Shown piece after piece: positions 20,949 through 32,613 of a stretch of 64,000 nucleotides of DNA (position 1 is the stretch's first letter; every line of letters starts with the position of its first letter). The notes under the pieces were generated by a model, which saw nothing but the letters and a program-made list of their open reading frames with translations, was not told the DNA's origin and did no database searches. The translations under genes and the position numbers were made by a program. The stretch comes from Cyclobacteriaceae bacterium (GTDB lineage: Bacteria; Bacteroidota; Bacteroidia; Cytophagales; Cyclobacteriaceae), in contig JABFRS010000002.1 in NCBI GenBank assembly GCA_013141055.1, forward strand, positions 124,001 through 188,000, read 5' to 3'.

Positions 20949-22070
20949 ATGACTACAGCACCTAAATTCTATGTTAACCTGTGGGGAAACCTCCAGGGAA
21001 ACCTCACCGCAGCGCTATGGCCCAACGTCACAAAAGCATGGGACGAAAAACGCTATCAGGATTCTTTCAACAGTCTCCTCGACTATATCAACCCCGCCCT
21101 GAGAAGCAAGTATGGTAACTCCTCCCAGACGCAATTCATTGTTCCTCATGGATCGGTCGTCGTGGATATCACCATCACGAATGATAAGGTCAACATCACC
21201 TGCCCTCTCGTCGATATCAAAGATGCCATGCGCATACCTTTGATGAGAAGGATCGCCGAACTCAACTTCTATCCTCTCACACTCTCGCAAATAAAGCTCT
21301 CTTCCAATCAACTGACTTTCCATTACAGCTCTACGCTCGATACCTGTGAGCCGTATAAAATGTATTACGTTCTGAAAGAGATCTGCTCTACTGCCGATCG
21401 CTATGACGATGAGCTTCGCGAAAAATTCAAAGCAAAGAATCTCGTAGAACCAAAAGTAATCTACCCCGCCGCAGATGTTGCATCTAAAGCATGGGACCAT
21501 GTCAACGAGATCATCAAAGAGACCGGTGAATACCAGACCTACTTCGATACCCAGCGTTGGTTCGGCAGCACGCTCGACTATCTCATGCTGGCATTAAAGA
21601 GAATTGACCTTTGTCTCCAGACACAGGGATTCCTTAAGACCGAGCTTGATCGCGTTGCCGGTGAACTTGCCAACGGTAATATCAATGTCAACGAACGCAT
21701 TCAGACAGCGAAGACATTCCTCGCAGGCATCCAGCAAAAAGGAAAAGATGCTTTTGTAAAACAGCTTTACCAGGCAGATACGTTCGTGCCTGAAAAGGCA
21801 AGCATCAGCGGCGATCGCGTCAAAGGAATGATCAAAGCTGCCTCTGCAAAGACCCAGGAGTTTCATGCAGGAAAGAATTACATAGGATCCTGCATTGAGT
21901 CGCACTACTGTATCTATGATCTGTTTTACAGAAACAACATGGACAACACCGTTAACATTATTCTGATCAATGCGCTGACCAATGCGTCAGGCAAAACATG
22001 GGCAGAAGCTTCGGGTATATTACTCACCGGACTTCAGACTATCGAAAACTATCCATTCCCTGCTAACTAA
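20949..22070 (+). CDS. Uncharacterised protein paired with the cytoplasmic HtrA-like protease
   Basis: A 373-residue soluble protein with no signal peptide or membrane segment. The N-terminal half (about 60-165) shows the strand-helix pattern of YbjN / type III secretion-chaperone-like domains: VVVDITITNDKVNITCPLVDI, then MRIPLMRRIAELNFYPLTLSQIKL and LTFHYSSTL, then a long helix. The C-terminal half is helical (ERIQTAKTFLAGIQQKGKDAF) and ends at YPFPAN. I do not recognise a named family. It lies 7 bp upstream of the protease gene, whose own C-terminal region has the same strand-helix layout, so the two proteins may bind each other. The first 250 bp upstream contain the tRNA-Asp terminator and no other gene. 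Confidence 0.75.
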   Translation: MTTAPKFYVNLWGNLQGNLTAALWPNVTKAWDEKRYQDSFNSLLDYINPALRSKYGNSSQTQFIVPHGSVVVDITITNDKVNITCPLVDIKDAMRIPLMRRIAELNFYPLTLSQIKLSSNQLTFHYSSTLDTCEPYKMYYVLKEICSTADRYDDELREKFKAKNLVEPKVIYPAADVASKAWDHVNEIIKETGEYQTYFDTQRWFGSTLDYLMLALKRIDLCLQTQGFLKTELDRVAGELANGNINVNERIQTAKTFLAGIQQKGKDAFVKQLYQADTFVPEKASISGDRVKGMIKAASAKTQEFHAGKNYIGSCIESHYCIYDLFYRNNMDNTVNIILINALTNASGKTWAEASGILLTGLQTIENYPFPAN

Positions 22071-22077
22071 TTATACC

Positions 22078-23154
22078 ATGGCTCACGCATTCGAACAATC
22101 GATCTATAAGGTGATGACCGCAAGCGGATCAGGTACCAGCTTCTATCTTAAAGACAAGAATATTTTTGTTACCAACTATCACGTGGTTGGTAATTCCAAA
22201 ACAGTTTCACTACAGGACAAGGAAGGCAACCGTCACCTCGCGAAAGTAGTGCTGGTCAATCCCCAGGAAGATGTTGCATTCCTCAGTGTTGACAAGAAAT
22301 TCGATATCCCACAGCTTGAACTTCACGATGACTCCGCTCTTCAGCAGGGTGATAAAGTATTTGTAGCGGGATATCCTTTCGGTATGCCATTCACGGTGAC
22401 AGAAGGAACTGTCAGTGCACCAAGTCAGCTCATGAGCGGACGTAAGTTCATTCAGACCGACGCAGCCGTTAATCCTGGCAATAGTGGTGGTCCTATGATC
22501 AATGCTCATGGAAAGGTGATCGGTATCACTACCAGCAAATTCAACAACGCGGACAACATGGGTTTTGCGGTTCCCATCTCCACGCTTACGGAAGAGTTCA
22601 ACGCACTCAGCAAAGTATCAGGAACAACATTCAATCTTGTATGTGATTCATGCGCGGCATTGATCAATGAACGATCTGAGTTCTGCCTCAGCTGTGGCCA
22701 GAACATCGACGTCAAATATTTTGATGAACCCGTCCTGTCGGATATCAGCAACTTCTGTGAACGTGCTATCGCCGGACTCGGAGTGAATCCGGTGCTTGCG
22801 CGCCAGGGCACAGAGTTCTGGGAGTTCCATGTCGACTCAGCAATGGTGAGATTGTTTGTTTACAACAACAGCTATCTGTATGCTACTTCCCCGATCAATC
22901 AGTTGCCGATGCAAAACATGGGACCGCTGCTGGAGGAATTGCTCTCTGCAGATGTAGGAGTTTATCAATTAGGAGTTCATGACAAGGAAGTGTTTATCTC
23001 CTATCGGGTTTATATCACCGATATATTCTCGTCGCGTCAGAATGAGATCAATGCCAATATCACGGGCTTATTCAAGAAGGCGAATGAGATTGATGATGAA
23101 TTTGTGAAGAAGTTTGGGTGCAAGTATTCGGTGCATTCGCTGAAGAATAAGTGA
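22078..23154 (+). CDS. Cytoplasmic trypsin-like (HtrA/S1C-type) serine protease with zinc ribbon and YbjN-like C-terminal domain
   Basis: A 358-residue protein. Residues 1-175 are a trypsin-fold protease with triad His35 (VTNYHVVG), Asp65 (PQEDVAFL) and Ser136 (NPGNSGGP). Residues 189-206 are a zinc ribbon CxxC...CxxC (Cys189, 192, 203, 206). Residues 215-350 have the fold pattern of YbjN / secretion-chaperone-like domains (MVRLFVYNNSYLYATSPINQ, then helices and a strand VFISYRVYI). HtrA family members normally carry a signal peptide and PDZ domains; this one has neither, so it should act in the cytoplasm. ATG at 22078 begins the protease domain directly, 7 bp after the upstream gene. The pair looks like one operon, with an adaptor-type partner first. 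Confidence 0.85.
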   Translation: MAHAFEQSIYKVMTASGSGTSFYLKDKNIFVTNYHVVGNSKTVSLQDKEGNRHLAKVVLVNPQEDVAFLSVDKKFDIPQLELHDDSALQQGDKVFVAGYPFGMPFTVTEGTVSAPSQLMSGRKFIQTDAAVNPGNSGGPMINAHGKVIGITTSKFNNADNMGFAVPISTLTEEFNALSKVSGTTFNLVCDSCAALINERSEFCLSCGQNIDVKYFDEPVLSDISNFCERAIAGLGVNPVLARQGTEFWEFHVDSAMVRLFVYNNSYLYATSPINQLPMQNMGPLLEELLSADVGVYQLGVHDKEVFISYRVYITDIFSSRQNEINANITGLFKKANEIDDEFVKKFGCKYSVHSLKNK

Positions 23155-25046: not shown

Positions 25047-25124
25047 GATTTCCTGCAAATATTTATAAAACCAGTGTTGGATTCGTCCGGCATTGGTATT
25101 TTTATGCCTACCCCATTCCTCATC

Positions 25125-25757
25125 ATGAAAATTTCTGATCGGATTCAACTACTCAAAACCAAACTCGAAGCTCAAAGGAAAAAGGACACCAAACTGGAAG
25201 TATTCGGCGCCGGAGACAATCCATACTATCGAATGGAAGGTCACCATTATAAATTGAACAAACCCTTAACCGAAAAAGAGATTGAGGCCACCGAAAAACT
25301 TATCGGCGTAGTGTTACCGGAAGAGTATCGTGAGTTTCTCAAGCTTGCCGGTGATGGCGGTGCAGGTCCGGCCTGGGGAATATTTGAATTGAAGGATGCT
25401 CATCCCGACAAGGCTTTCCTGAAGGAATACCCTGACTTCTGCAGCATGGAATTTCCGTATGACAATGTCTATGCGGATGCGATCATGGAAGACATAAAAG
25501 ATGATCTTTCTCTTCGTGGTCCTTTCGACGATCCGTTCGGTGGGTTTATCAAGCTCGCAAACTACGGCCATGATCTGTCGGCCATCTTAATAACTTCCGG
25601 TGAACAATACGGCAAGATGTGGATGCTGGATGAGAATCAATCCATCACTCCATTCTATCAGAATATAAAAGACCGCGAAGCCAGCGTCGGCTTCCTGGAT
25701 TGGTATGAGAACTGGCTCGACGAAACTTTACCAGACGCACCTCAGCCTCAGTTTTGA
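25125..25757 (+). CDS. SMI1/KNR4 family protein (first paralogue)
   Basis: A 210-residue cytoplasmic protein of the SMI1/KNR4 (SUKH) superfamily: LTEKEIEATEKLIGVVLPEEYREFLKLAGDGGAGPAWGIFEL is the hallmark helix-strand entry, and FLDWYENWLDETLPD closes the domain. SUKH proteins often serve as immunity proteins to secreted toxins in bacterial competition systems, but many are stand-alone. ATG at 25125 is chosen; a longer start at 25103 would add a few hydrophobic residues. It is clearly paralogous to the gene at 30586 (shared openings RIQLLKTKLEAQ / RIKTKLEKL and shared FLDWYE.WLDE endings). It ends 28 bp before the ion channel gene. Confidence 0.85.
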   Translation: MKISDRIQLLKTKLEAQRKKDTKLEVFGAGDNPYYRMEGHHYKLNKPLTEKEIEATEKLIGVVLPEEYREFLKLAGDGGAGPAWGIFELKDAHPDKAFLKEYPDFCSMEFPYDNVYADAIMEDIKDDLSLRGPFDDPFGGFIKLANYGHDLSAILITSGEQYGKMWMLDENQSITPFYQNIKDREASVGFLDWYENWLDETLPDAPQPQF

Positions 25758-25785: not shown

Positions 25786-26694
25786 ATGACCCTCCTGAAA
25801 ACTACCTTTAAAACAATTGTTGACAGCAAGATATTTCACGAGCTCGTCAGCATCGTCATCATTCTATGCTCATTTACTCTTGGACTGGAAACGTTCTATC
25901 CTGAGCACAAGGATGTATTTGATATGCTCGACTTTGCCTTCACGTTCTTCTTCGTCTGTGAGATCATCTTCCGTATCCTGGGAGAAACAAATCCACTGCA
26001 CTTCTTCAAGCTCTTCTCCATTAAGAATGGCCGTGTAGATGTTGATGAAAAAGGTTTCTGGAATCTGTTCGACTTCACCATTGTTGCCGTGAGCGCCGCA
26101 AGCTTGTTCGGTCACTTCTTTGAGCACCCTGAATTCCTTGCCGTAAGCAGATTGTTCCGTGTGCTGCGGGTATTGCGCTTACTGGAGATCAGTTCCGAGT
26201 TGAAATCAGTAGAACAGAAGATCGTGTCCATCATCCCCACGATATTCTCCTTTGCCCTGTTGCTAGGCATTTTACTTTACATCTATTCCATCATTGGAAT
26301 CTATTTGTTCAGCCATCATCAGTTTGACCACGCCGACTTCACAACGCTAGGTCATGCCTTCATCACTCTTTTCCAGCTCATGACACTGGACGGCTGGAGC
26401 GACATGATGTATGCGGCCAGTGCCAACTACAATGACAGCTGGCTGATCAAGAGTTATTTCGTGAGCTTCGTCGTCCTCACAGCCATCATCAGCTTCAATG
26501 TCTTTGTGGCGGTCTTAACCTCACAGGTACATGAGAAAGTTGTACTGGATCAGAAGTTCAATAAAAAGAAGATCACTGAGATCCAGGGTGACCTCCAGGA
26601 GACTGAACAAGAGGTTCACCAGGGATTTGAAGCCGTGATGAAAGAGTTGAAATTACTGAGAGCAGAAGTTGAAGCGCTGAAGAAAAACAAGTAA
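25786..26694 (+). CDS. NaChBac-type voltage-gated cation channel, calcium-channel-like filter
   Basis: A 302-residue single-domain six-helix channel. S1-S3 span about 15-115. S4 (about 120-133) has the sensor arginines Arg122, 125, 128 and 131 in SRLFRVLRVLRLLEIS. S5, pore helix and S6 follow, and the C-terminus (about 266-300) is a Lys/Glu-rich coiled coil that would assemble the tetramer. The filter (200-206) is Thr-Leu-Asp-Gly-Trp-Ser-Asp. Sodium-selective relatives have TLESWSM/TLESWAS. The Gly after the first acid and the Asp at the last position match calcium-selective filters (the engineered CavAb TLDDWSD, and TMEGWTD-type eukaryotic repeats). I infer possible Ca2+ permeation. Start ATG 25786, directly after the SMI1 gene. 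Confidence 0.92.
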   Translation: MTLLKTTFKTIVDSKIFHELVSIVIILCSFTLGLETFYPEHKDVFDMLDFAFTFFFVCEIIFRILGETNPLHFFKLFSIKNGRVDVDEKGFWNLFDFTIVAVSAASLFGHFFEHPEFLAVSRLFRVLRVLRLLEISSELKSVEQKIVSIIPTIFSFALLLGILLYIYSIIGIYLFSHHQFDHADFTTLGHAFITLFQLMTLDGWSDMMYAASANYNDSWLIKSYFVSFVVLTAIISFNVFVAVLTSQVHEKVVLDQKFNKKKITEIQGDLQETEQEVHQGFEAVMKELKLLRAEVEALKKNK

Positions 26695-28082: not shown

Positions 28083-28463
28083 TTATACCATCTGGCTGAA
28101 TAATCTCTCCATCATCTCCCCTGCATTGGTGCACAGTCCTGGGTGAACCTTGGAAGTCTGAATGATCGTGCTCCTGGTTGCTGTGAGCCACCGGAACCTT
28201 TCCGGCATGGTGAGCTTGCCGATAGTGCCGCCTTCATTTCCTCCGGCACAGATCTGTTCAAAGGCAACGAGCTGTTCTCTTAGTTCGGAGATCTCAACTT
28301 TACTCCACAGTGATTTTAATCTGGCTTCATCAAGCTTGAATTTCATTTTAAGAAACTTCTCATCCTTGCAATAGAGGATCACACCAACGTTGAGGAATTC
28401 CTCACGCTCTACCTGCGGTACTACCCGGATCACGGCTGATTCAAATAAGTGCTGCTCTTGCAT
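28083..28463 (-). CDS. DUF3037 family protein, partner of the HipA-like kinase
   Basis: A 126-residue protein: MQEQHLFESAVIRVVPQVEREEFLNVGVILYCKD is a near-exact DUF3037 opening, followed by a Lys-rich middle and FRWLTATRSTIIQTSKVHPG. DUF3037 genes are usually found right after a HipA-like kinase gene, as here: it overlaps the kinase gene by 23 bp. Two reading starts exist; ATG at 28463 fits best. It could be a regulator or target of the kinase, but no experimental function is known to me. Confidence 0.85.
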   Translation of the reverse strand: MQEQHLFESAVIRVVPQVEREEFLNVGVILYCKDEKFLKMKFKLDEARLKSLWSKVEISELREQLVAFEQICAGGNEGGTIGKLTMPERFRWLTATRSTIIQTSKVHPGLCTNAGEMMERLFSQMV

Positions 28464-29238
28464 CTTGGGCTTCTTTAACAAAGATATCAGAATGAGAAAT
28501 CCGTGAGTTCAAAAAATCGATATAGGCGTTGCGATGCTCTTCGGTGCTGGCGAAGTGCGGTTCATTTCCAAGCCATTCATCCGGTACCAATGAAACAATG
28601 GCCCGGATCTTTTCAGGAGTCAGGATGGCCTTAAATGAAGCGTCCACATGTTCCAGCTGACTCGCCCCTGCAAGCATAACATGATCTTTCACCTGGGCAA
28701 ATGGCTTTTGAATGTCTTTGTTGAAATCATTCCAGTTGTGATGAATGTATAATGATGCACCGTGATCAATCAGCCAGAGCTCTCCATGCCAGATGAGCAT
28801 GTTGGTATTGCGTGCAGTCCGGTCGACGTTCAGCAGCAAGCTATCAAGCCAAACAATCTGGGATGCCAGTACCGTGTTTACTTTTCTTACAATCGCATCA
28901 AAGGTGATGGCACCTGACAGATAATGAACAGCAAGATTCAATCCTGTGCTTGCTTTGAGAAGATCCTGGATCTCTTCATCCCCCTCCATCCTGCCGAAGG
29001 AACTGTCGAGGTTGGCAAAGACTATTTCAGGTACTTTGAATCCAAGAGTTCGTGCAATTTCTCCTCCAATGAGTTCGGCAATCAACGCCCTTGAACCCTG
29101 TCCCGCTCCCCTGAATTTCAAAACATAGAAGAACTGGTCATCTGCTTCAATGATCGCCGGCAATGAACCGCCTTCACGAAGGGGCATTACATATCGCGTG
29201 ACGTTAACAATGCGCAATGAAGGTGATTGAATGCTCAT
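28441..29238 (-). CDS. HipA-like kinase (HipA_2 type)
   Basis: A 265-residue protein with a HipA-like small kinase fold. Lys41 (FYVLKFRG) is the likely ATP-binding lysine. The catalytic loop reads LLLNVDRTARNTNMLIWHG (Asp139, Asn144, Asn146), and LIDHGASL contains the metal-binding Asp158 in place of DFG. HipA proteins phosphorylate glutamyl-tRNA synthetase or other targets and act as toxins when paired with HipB. Here there is no HipB-type DNA-binding gene; instead a DUF3037 gene overlaps the 3' end by 23 bp, the usual neighbour of this short HipA form. Target and physiological role are unknown. Confidence 0.85.
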   Translation of the reverse strand: MSIQSPSLRIVNVTRYVMPLREGGSLPAIIEADDQFFYVLKFRGAGQGSRALIAELIGGEIARTLGFKVPEIVFANLDSSFGRMEGDEEIQDLLKASTGLNLAVHYLSGAITFDAIVRKVNTVLASQIVWLDSLLLNVDRTARNTNMLIWHGELWLIDHGASLYIHHNWNDFNKDIQKPFAQVKDHVMLAGASQLEHVDASFKAILTPEKIRAIVSLVPDEWLGNEPHFASTEEHRNAYIDFLNSRISHSDIFVKEAQDARAALI

Positions 29239-30585: not shown

Positions 30586-31185
30586 ATGAAGTTCGACGAA
30601 CAGCTTTCCCGCATTAAGACCAAGCTTGAGAAATTAAAAAGCAAGGACAAAGATCTTCAGGTCTTTGGTGCGGATAGTCATCAGTATGAAATTGATTCTC
30701 CTGCCACCCTGGATGATATCCTTGAATTTGAGAACAAGTACGACGTCAGACTTCCGGAAGAGTATATCGCCTTCATTACCAATATCGGGAATGGTGGCTT
30801 ATCATACGATGGTGGTGGTGCCGGGCCTTATTATGGGATCTATCCGTTAGGCGAATTCGGATATATGCAGATCGACAAAGAATCAATGTCCTCTCCCAGT
30901 GTCATCAATTCAGGACTGACACAGAATAATTGGGAAGACATGACTGCTTTTTCTCAAGGTGGAGTTGAAAGCATTGAGAATGATCGGAAATACAAAGAGC
31001 TGTTCAATGGCATGATGTCATTAGGAACCCGCGGCTGTTCAGGGCAAACAATGCTGATCGTCAAAGGCGATGACTATGGACGCGTGGCCTATATTGATCA
31101 GGATCTGTATTTACCGAGTCTGCCGGCTGCCAATAATTTTCTTGATTGGTATGAGCAGTGGCTCGATGAAAATCTGAAAGCGTAA
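30586..31185 (+). CDS. SMI1/KNR4 family protein (second paralogue)
   Basis: A 199-residue SMI1/KNR4 (SUKH) domain protein: TLDDILEFENKYDVRLPEEYIAFITNIGNGGLSYDGGGAGPYYGIYPL is the domain core, with FLDWYEQWLDENLKA at the end. It shares its opening (RIKTKLEKLKSKDKDLQVFGA versus RIQLLKTKLEAQRKKDTKLEVFGA, similar rather than identical) and its ending with the gene at 25125, so the two are paralogues separated by about 5 kb of accessory genes. It converges on the sensor kinase gene with 3 bp between stops. Immunity-type function is possible, but no toxin gene is visible. Confidence 0.85.
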   Translation: MKFDEQLSRIKTKLEKLKSKDKDLQVFGADSHQYEIDSPATLDDILEFENKYDVRLPEEYIAFITNIGNGGLSYDGGGAGPYYGIYPLGEFGYMQIDKESMSSPSVINSGLTQNNWEDMTAFSQGGVESIENDRKYKELFNGMMSLGTRGCSGQTMLIVKGDDYGRVAYIDQDLYLPSLPAANNFLDWYEQWLDENLKA

Positions 31186-31188
31186 TCG

Positions 31189-32538
31189 TTAGTTTGCTGA
31201 AATACTCACCGTAAAGGTTGACCCTTCCCCGTAAACAGATTCTACAGTGACTTCTCCATTCAATCGTTGAAGAGTTTCTTTTACGATGTAAAGTCCAAGA
31301 CCCGTTCCCTGTGCCCGGTCGTGAGCCTTATAGAACATTTCAAAGATTCTGCCCTGATGTTCCGGAGGGATTCCGATGCCATTATCGCGGATGATCGTTA
31401 TCCATTTTCCATCCTTAATAAATGACTCGATATCAACGGAAGGTCGTTTGATAATGTCACGATAGTAAATGGCATTGCCGATGATATTGGTAAGGATAAC
31501 TTTTACCCGCTCCTTATCAGTCCTTACATTTAAAGAAGCATCTGCATGAACATGAATGCTTACTTCTTCTGCACCCTGAATGAAAAGGATCTCACGAATG
31601 ACATCATCCAGTATCTCTTTTACTTTGACCGGAAGTATTCTGAGTTCAACGCGGGTGTTCTTTGAATAGTCGAGCACCTCACGAATGAAGTTATCAAGCG
31701 TCTGAGCCCGTTCCTGCATCATCCTGACCATGGATGCTCTTTCAGTATCGTCTTTTGCCAGTTCGTAAACATTTGTCAGGCCAAGAATGGAGCTGAGCGG
31801 TGCTCTCAGATCATGTGAAACACTATAGACGAAATGGTCAAGTTCCTTATTCGTCTTTTCAAGCAATTCATTTTGTTCGCGCAGCGATTCTTCAGATTCT
31901 TTGTTCCTGTTTAATAAGAACTGCAGCATGAAGACCGTTGACAGCAATGCAATGGTAAAATTGGCGATGAAATTTACGGCAACCATCCCGGGTCCATAAA
32001 CGGGCGACGGTGCAAGATGTGCATCAAAGAAGAATGCAAGATATCCTATGGGTACCGGAAAGAATGCAAAGAGAAGTCCGGCTTTTGAATTGTAATAACT
32101 CAATAAGATCAGTCCTGCCATGGACGATGTCATAAAGTAAAAGAAGACACCTCCGTCAGGATGATCTACATCAGCAAAAATGTAAACCAGGAAATTGATG
32201 ATGAACAGGATGATCACCGTGGACGAGGTGTAGTGCTTTCTCCTGTTGAGAACGATGGCCGCGGCCGACATGGCAATCATCAATGAATACCAGGGGATGA
32301 AGACAAAGACTCCGTTAACAGAATCAAGAAAGGAATAGAATACGCCTACCATAAGAATGATGATGGCGAACTCCCCTCTCAGCATCGCGTACTTGAATTC
32401 ATGTCTGGATACTATGGGCCTGCTTCCCCAAAAAAGTTTTTGTGCCAGGCTCATGAATCGATCGGAGTATGATTTTTTTTGAAGGCGCGAAGTACGGTAA
32501 AAGGTCGCCGTATTGAAAGTGTCGGTTTGCCAATCCAT
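31189..32538 (-). CDS. Membrane-bound sensor histidine kinase
   Basis: A 449-residue kinase. Six membrane helices occupy about 50-215 (FAIIILMVGVFYSFL, then VIILFIINFLVYIFA and others); a coiled-coil linker follows (ESEESLREQNELLEKTNKEL). The dimerisation H-box is YSVSHDLRAPLSSILGL with the phosphorylated His. The ATPase domain carries the N box (TNIIGNAIYYRD), G1 (IRDNGIGIP), F box and G2 (GTGLGLYIVKETL). No response regulator is adjacent, so it is an orphan kinase. It is divergent from mqo, with 75 bp between starts; ATG at 32538 is preferred over a further upstream in-frame start. Confidence 0.9.
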   Translation of the reverse strand: MDWQTDTFNTATFYRTSRLQKKSYSDRFMSLAQKLFWGSRPIVSRHEFKYAMLRGEFAIIILMVGVFYSFLDSVNGVFVFIPWYSLMIAMSAAAIVLNRRKHYTSSTVIILFIINFLVYIFADVDHPDGGVFFYFMTSSMAGLILLSYYNSKAGLLFAFFPVPIGYLAFFFDAHLAPSPVYGPGMVAVNFIANFTIALLSTVFMLQFLLNRNKESEESLREQNELLEKTNKELDHFVYSVSHDLRAPLSSILGLTNVYELAKDDTERASMVRMMQERAQTLDNFIREVLDYSKNTRVELRILPVKVKEILDDVIREILFIQGAEEVSIHVHADASLNVRTDKERVKVILTNIIGNAIYYRDIIKRPSVDIESFIKDGKWITIIRDNGIGIPPEHQGRIFEMFYKAHDRAQGTGLGLYIVKETLQRLNGEVTVESVYGEGSTFTVSISAN

Positions 32539-32613
32539 GACGGAAAAGGTTAAAACTTGCTTCGTTCTGTGCCAGGATTTGCACCATCCTCTCATTCATG
32601 CTTAATTCGCATT

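Follow-up and report, generated by a model that had tools for sequence, protein, structure and literature searches.

CavMr of Meiothermus ruber, a single-repeat channel with Gly at position 4 and Asp at position 7 of its selectivity filter (PMC7041947), was still named in February 2026 as the sole identified prokaryotic Cav (PMC12919392). Its filter, TLEGWVD, is also that of repeat I of Cav3.1 (PMC7041947; solved chain), and the channel, in its G240A form, has a PCa/PNa of 218. Table 1 of the same paper gives PCa/PNa values of 40, 12, 7.7 and 144 for the CavMr mutants V6T, G4S, G4D and D7M, of 0.31 for NavPp (T232A form) and of 41 for NavPp-D4G, together with PK/PNa values of 0.69 for CavMr-V6T and 0.81 for NavPp-D4G (PMC7041947), which implies that in these channels Gly4 favours Ca2+, Asp7 is dispensable and residue 6 matters. 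According to a review, one-domain channels with Gly at position 4 are Ca2+ selective whichever high-field acid they carry (PMC10120453); its Glu and Asp examples look interchanged for CavMr. In NavAb, the substitution that places Gly at position 4 (S178G) leaves PCa/PNa below 0.01 and raises Li+ selectivity, and M181A mutants reach about 10-fold Ca2+ selectivity (PMC12919392), so that Gly4 does not act alone and its effect depends on its surroundings, position 7 included. NsvBa of Bacillus alcalophilus (filter TLDSWGSG) is non-selective, D186E alone brings back its Na+ selectivity, and its G189A mutant, with the filter TLDSWASG, still conducts Ca2+; the same paper cites from Finol-Urdaneta et al. 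that NaChBac becomes less Na+-selective upon E192D (PMC4225499).

The channel gene and its neighbourhood

The locus described here lies in a stretch of 64,000 nucleotides, hereafter the window, from the genome (4.65 Mb, two contigs) of a member of the Cyclobacteriaceae, a family that the NCBI taxonomy places within the Cytophagales, Bacteroidota. Its features, in window coordinates, are the following:

25074..25757, + strand: upstream neighbour, ORF of the SMI1/KNR4 (SUKH) family (Pfam match; piece 25119-25757 scanned)
25786..26694, + strand: gene of the single-repeat voltage-gated cation channel (ORF, ATG to TAA, 302 aa)
25828..25983, + strand: voltage-sensor helices S1-S2, residues 15-66 (F56 and E59 invariant; ends of the helices taken from a low-confidence model)
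25990..26058, + strand: S2-S3 stretch at residues 69-91, whose added length marks the lineage (alignment spans)
26149..26178, + strand: S4 gating charges R122, R125, R128 and R131, invariant in 21/21 lineage members
26344..26379, + strand: pore helix P1, residues 187-198 (low-confidence model and profile alignments)
26383..26403, + strand: selectivity filter TLDGWSD, residues 200-206, with Gly203 at position 4 (profile alignments)
26440..26541, + strand: S6 helix, approximately residues 219-252, N238 invariant (alignment and low-confidence model)
26548..26685, + strand: C-terminal tail with heptads, coiled-coil-like (sequence; helix 219-301 predicted by the low-confidence model)
30586-31185: second ORF of the SMI1/KNR4 family, 3.9 kb downstream of the channel (Pfam match)

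The protein matches Ion_trans (PF00520) over residues 15-249 (Pfam scan; E 5.4e-39, 134 bits), and none of four channels tried had a match in NCBIfam. A second in-frame ATG occurs at 25705, but the starts of relatives align near 25786. AlphaFold2, run on seven proteins (that of the window and its relatives from six named MAGs), gave a poor model (mean pLDDT 52.2, pTM 0.36) of which only the helix order was used: six helices with P1, filter and P2 between S5 and S6, as in the BacNav superfamily. The arginine at every third residue of S4 and the counter-charges in S2 and S3 are those of the same superfamily; F56 and E59 (S2), D96 (S3) and the four S4 arginines are invariant in all 21 aligned lineage members. 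Sequence comparison thus shows both the family and the gating-charge layout. Heptads can be followed by eye along the tail (F281-V284-L288-L291-V295-L298). Against four close relatives, pS is saturated (0.82-0.96) whereas pN is low (0.17-0.18; 0.28 and 0.36 against two more distant relatives), which means that the protein is under purifying selection and, together with the homologues that carry the same filter in six MAGs, that the ORF is real and not a chance one. Promoter- and terminator-like sites occur at a frequency expected by chance.

The original prediction located the gene in an accessory cluster beside SMI1/KNR4 genes. The adjacency is real, the upstream ORF (whose true start lies probably inside it) ending 28 bases before the channel, and carriage is patchy, as detailed below. 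Nevertheless, no neighbour travels with the channel in the 23 loci compared (window included, class-sample loci left out; ten neighbours scanned with Pfam), where the genes shared were limited to those of close species, isolated pairs and members of generic families, and no counterpart of the upstream SMI1/KNR4 ORF lay beside the relatives compared. A protease-type gene (21982-23154) and the gene at 31189-32595 are the only ones common to the window and some other loci. The channel gene seems to stand on its own, and a functional link with SMI1/KNR4 is not supported. Elsewhere in the window (28083-29238, - strand), a DUF3037 gene and one for a HipA-like kinase (HipA_2) lie side by side and together resemble a small module of two genes. 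In two other genomes, similar 500-residue genes follow the channel (L095:6918-8420 and L096:479-1984), the one in L095 being a zinc-type alcohol dehydrogenase/MaoC fusion according to Pfam.

The filter and its variation at position 4

Read directly from the DNA at 26383-26403, the filter is Thr-Leu-Asp-Gly-Trp-Ser-Asp at residues 200-206, as originally predicted; it departs from the sodium-type TLESW by its TLDGW and has an acid, Asp206, at position 7. In profile-profile alignments of 21 lineage members with 19 TLESW-type and 18 TLEDW/TLEGW-type channels, TLDGWSD falls over TLESWSS (E 1.9e-37) and TLEDWTD (E 7.6e-43), in both cases without any gap in the filter, which places Gly203 at position 4 and, at the level of sequence, fixes the register that the prediction had assumed.

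A search for other channels with Gly4 found that this residue prevails in the lineage without being constant. On the 28-row lineage part of the tree, position 4 is Gly in 21 rows, Asn in five and Ser in two, with three changes of residue. The Asn4 rows all read TLDNWSD (L095:5986-6915, L096:2038-2970, L097:206-1141, L098:5989-6909 and L100:5983-6903) and the Ser4 rows TLDSWAE (L099:1325-2239) and TLDSWTE (L116:1498-2412); the five Asn4 rows and L099 come from the window's own genus. Counted among the 21 Gly rows are two distant members on long branches (L117:1477-2364 and L118:1498-2223), the filters of which are one residue shorter (MT-NGWAD and MT-NGVAG) and lack the acid at position 3; these two should not be relied upon as Ca2+ channels. 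Four lineage members (L039, L041, L113 and L115) have TLEGWVD, a filter identical to that of CavMr (PMC7041947), and another (L114) has TLEGWTD.

In a broader set of 84 rows, Gly4 is found in 28 (17/23 of the lineage, 11/61 outside it) and Gly4 combined with Asp or Glu at position 7 in 26 (16/23 and 10/61). Gly4 is the rule in the lineage, yet it is neither fixed there nor unique to it. The set leaves out 16 duplicates and seven loci that are short or below 60 bits, namely L032 and L062 (both TLEGWNE), L038, L060 (TLEGWPD), L083, L089 (TGDGWSD) and L101; L002 and L033-L037 were without a tblastn match. L002 is the second Ion_trans match in the window's genome, a weak one (36 bits, G000:C1:1559718-1559990).

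Several other filters deserve mention in their own right. Two channels outside the lineage (L067:1483-2346 and L068:1462-2325) have TLEGWTD, as in the measured mutants CavMr-V6T and NavPp-D4G. Within the TLESW group of the 81-row tree described below, L073 (TLEGWAE) and L081 (TLEGWAD) have Gly4, and their placement suggests separate gains of this residue. Gly occupies both positions 2 and 4 in L064 (TGDGWSD), L066 (TGDGWSE) and L070 (TGDGWGD).

Placement and distribution of the lineage

In a quick 81-row tree (NavMs included, filter columns and tail removed, and L013, L045 and L091 further dropped from the 84-row set), a branch with an SH-aLRT of 100 sets the 21 lineage rows off from all others. 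The same holds for 28 lineage rows in a careful tree of 46 rows (support 100/100), and 23 lineage rows stay apart (100/99) after the addition of four human Cav/Nav repeats, with the filter columns kept. The separating branch measures approximately 3.3, 4.1 and 3.3 changes per site in the 81-row, 46-row and human-repeat trees, rough lengths that sum both sides of a root drawn at the midpoint and not inferred. The 81-row tree came with a warning of long branches joining next to the lineage (L075), a row absent from both later trees. Grouping of the lineage with NavMs and TLESW channels was seen in none of the three trees, in which NavMs itself is the only one present of the named sodium channels NaChBac, NavAb and NavMs. 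The TLEDW-type rows form their own group apart from the lineage (98/98 in the tree with human repeats); judging from filter and loop, with the CavMr and NavPp sequences outside the trees, our guess is that this group corresponds to the published AnclNavs. We also considered the eukaryotic Cav repeats as nearest kin of the lineage and rejected the idea: the human repeats Cav3.1 II, Cav3.1 III, Cav3.2 II and Nav1.3 II joined other bacterial channels, on long branches, and did not group with the window lineage.

Anatomical marks accompany this separation. From E59 to W92 (S2-S3), the 84-row alignment shows 33-45 residues in all 23 lineage rows and 17-28 in the remaining 61, and this region is at least 15 residues shorter in NavMs and TLESW rows than in the window channel. 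Between filter end and S6, the lineage rows that reach S6 have 19-21 residues (19 separate residue 206 from residue 225 in the window channel) as against 29-43 in 20 TLEDW/TLEGW-type rows; the TLESW-type rows, with 17, have a short loop too. Two cysteines are found in this loop in 6/10 TLEDW/TLEGW-type rows checked; the window protein has cysteines at 28 and 58 only, none beyond residue 58, and is without the long disulfide-bearing L6 loop of CavMr (PMC10120453). The window channel has the Ion_trans fold, S4 arginines, P1-filter-P2 layout and helical tail of NaChBac, NavAb and NavMs, but differs from them by their TLESW filter and separate tree group. The NaChBac layout originally proposed is thus retained for a single-repeat voltage-gated channel (Ion_trans) with four S4 arginines, although the tree puts it in a lineage that, on this sequence evidence, is separate and deeply divided within the BacNav superfamily.

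Six MAGs titled Cyclobacteriaceae or Flammeovirgaceae have a homologue at 71-74% identity, with TLDGWSD in all six, and at least two of them belong to the window's genus (identical protein in L003 and G965, and in L005 and G966). Counting the window's own genome each time, lineage members occur in 11/58 genomes of the genus (besides the own one, three with 72-74% identity, six with 44-47% and one with a 56% piece cut by a contig end; a twelfth genome, matching at 28%, was left out), 5/196 of the family (31 more genomes matched, none above 38% identity, and were left out), 9/390 of the order (limit 1e-10; 16 further genomes with weaker matches), 7/395 of the class and 1/395 of the phylum, which is the own genome (profile searches, limit 1e-40). 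A protein search of the phylum sample matched 31/395 genomes, all but the own one with 38% identity or less. Some genomes recur between samples, and scoring in the larger samples was limited to the few best candidates per genome. Carriage of the lineage is patchy and, as sampled, confined to the window's class, other phyla being covered only by a single-sequence scan, which detects close relatives alone. Smaller samples had suggested a genus without the gene (0/4 and 0/5 other genomes), a view overturned by the 11/58. No relative was confirmed in viral contigs or found in phage records, and plasmids gave two partial matches at 31% identity.

Ion preference and significance

Compared by published filter and description, CavMr differs from the window channel at the positions where the latter has Asp3 and Ser6 (PMC7041947). 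The engineered CavAb/CaChBac filter TLDDW(S/A)D has Asp3 and Asp7 in common with that of the window, which is natural, not engineered, and has Gly rather than Asp at position 4 (PMC7041947). Among eukaryotic channels, repeats I and III of Cav3.1 read TLEGWVDIMY and SKDGWVDIMY (solved chain) against TLDGWSDMMY in the window, and CatSper3 reads TVDGWTD (PMC7041947), Cav3.1 repeat III and CatSper3 both pairing Asp3 with Gly4; Cav3.1 is a eukaryotic four-repeat chain and CatSper3 a hetero-tetramer, whereas the window channel has a single repeat.

By analogy with these systems, we consider it reasonably probable that the gene encodes a voltage-gated homotetramer in which Ca2+ permeates no less readily than Na+, that is, a Ca2+-preferring cation channel of the BacNav superfamily in a lineage apart from the NavAb-like (TLESW) and TLEDW-type ones. 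Depolarisation would move S4 with its four arginines, upon which S6 would open; in the open pore, a ring of four Asp202 (position 3) would act as high-field site, Gly203 would keep the outer mouth wide and flexible, and a ring of four Asp206 (position 7) would gather divalent ions. Tetrameric assembly, voltage gating, the role of each residue and the Ca2+ preference are all transposed here from better-known channels, a transfer of filter rules that is risky because all the characterised channels compared are distant from the lineage. Calcium permeability is itself likely; with Asp3, Gly4 and Asp7 combined, the filter is expected to let Ca2+ in without a preference for Na+, but Ser6 and Asp3 may make it permeable to K+ and Na+ as well. 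Gly4 in most lineage rows and the presence of TLEGWVD and TLEGWTD among the lineage filters speak for Ca2+; against it stand Ser6, where the full selectivity of CavMr depends on Val6 (PMC7041947), the lack of an L6 loop like that of CavMr, and a position 4 other than Gly in 7/28 lineage rows. The original argument from the filter to Ca2+ can therefore be kept in part: Gly4 and Asp7 are present, but Gly4 was not sufficient in NavAb S178G (PMC12919392), CavMr can dispense with Asp7 (PMC7041947), and Asp3 weakens the case because Asp at this position accompanies a loss of Na+ selectivity in NsvBa and NaChBac (PMC4225499).

This last observation is also what lends substance to a channel that would conduct Na+, K+ and Ca2+ alike, its filter relaxed by Asp3 and by Ser6 instead of Val6, as might the PK/PNa of 0.69 and 0.81 in CavMr-V6T and NavPp-D4G (PMC7041947). 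Such a non-selective channel seems to us rather unlikely: NsvBa shares Asp3 with the window channel but has Gly6, the Bacillus filters have Ser4 and Ser7 where the window has Gly4 and Asp7 (PMC4225499), both mutants still have a PCa/PNa of about 40 (PMC7041947), and Asp3 also accompanies Gly4 in CatSper3 and Cav3.1 repeat III. A preference for Na+ (or Li+) in spite of Gly4, for which NavAb S178G with its low PCa/PNa and raised Li+ selectivity sets the precedent, is improbable, as that pore keeps Glu3 and Met181 at position 7, whereas the window channel has Asp at both, and M181A mutants do select Ca2+ (PMC12919392). The patchy carriage, in which one of the 11/58 genomes of the genus holds only a piece cut by a contig end, could be taken to mean a gene under weak or no selection, non-functional, or a channel that is not voltage-gated; with pS saturated against such low pN among close relatives, and S4 arginines and S2/S3 counter-charges invariant in 21/21, we regard this as very improbable indeed.

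More tentatively than the Ca2+-preferring channel itself, the lineage may represent a native Ca2+ channel class of the window's class of Bacteroidota, independent of CavMr, with naturally varied position 4 and with Ca2+-selective and less selective channels side by side in one genus. Its filters would have Gly4 mostly, Asn4 or Ser4 in a sub-branch, and Asp or Glu at positions 3 and 7. In a text search of open-licence papers we found no mention of TLDGWSD, no paper linking BacNav filters with Bacteroidetes or voltage-gated sodium channels with Cytophagales, and neither a studied member of the lineage nor a measurement of its TLDGWSD, TLDNWSD, TLDSWAE or TLEGWVD channels. Among the matches listed for prokaryotic calcium channels, only the CavMr paper names a native prokaryotic Cav by title, and Bacteroidota are absent among the matches listed by a looser search on the topic. 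That paper describes AnclNavs from several phyla, its main text naming neither Bacteroidetes nor Cytophaga (PMC7041947), and its sequence table may include the lineage unlabelled.

The lineage amounts to a set of naturally occurring mutants at position 4, the proposed determinant of calcium selectivity. It carries the TLEGWVD of CavMr in a different backbone, beside TLDGWSD, TLDNWSD and TLDSWAE, the channels with the latter two being kin in the window's genus. With such a set, what position 4 contributes could be told apart from what the backbone contributes, and thereby the share of Gly4 in Ca2+ selectivity from that of its surroundings, the question raised by NavAb S178G (PMC12919392). It also bears on whether voltage-driven Ca2+ entry is commoner in bacteria.
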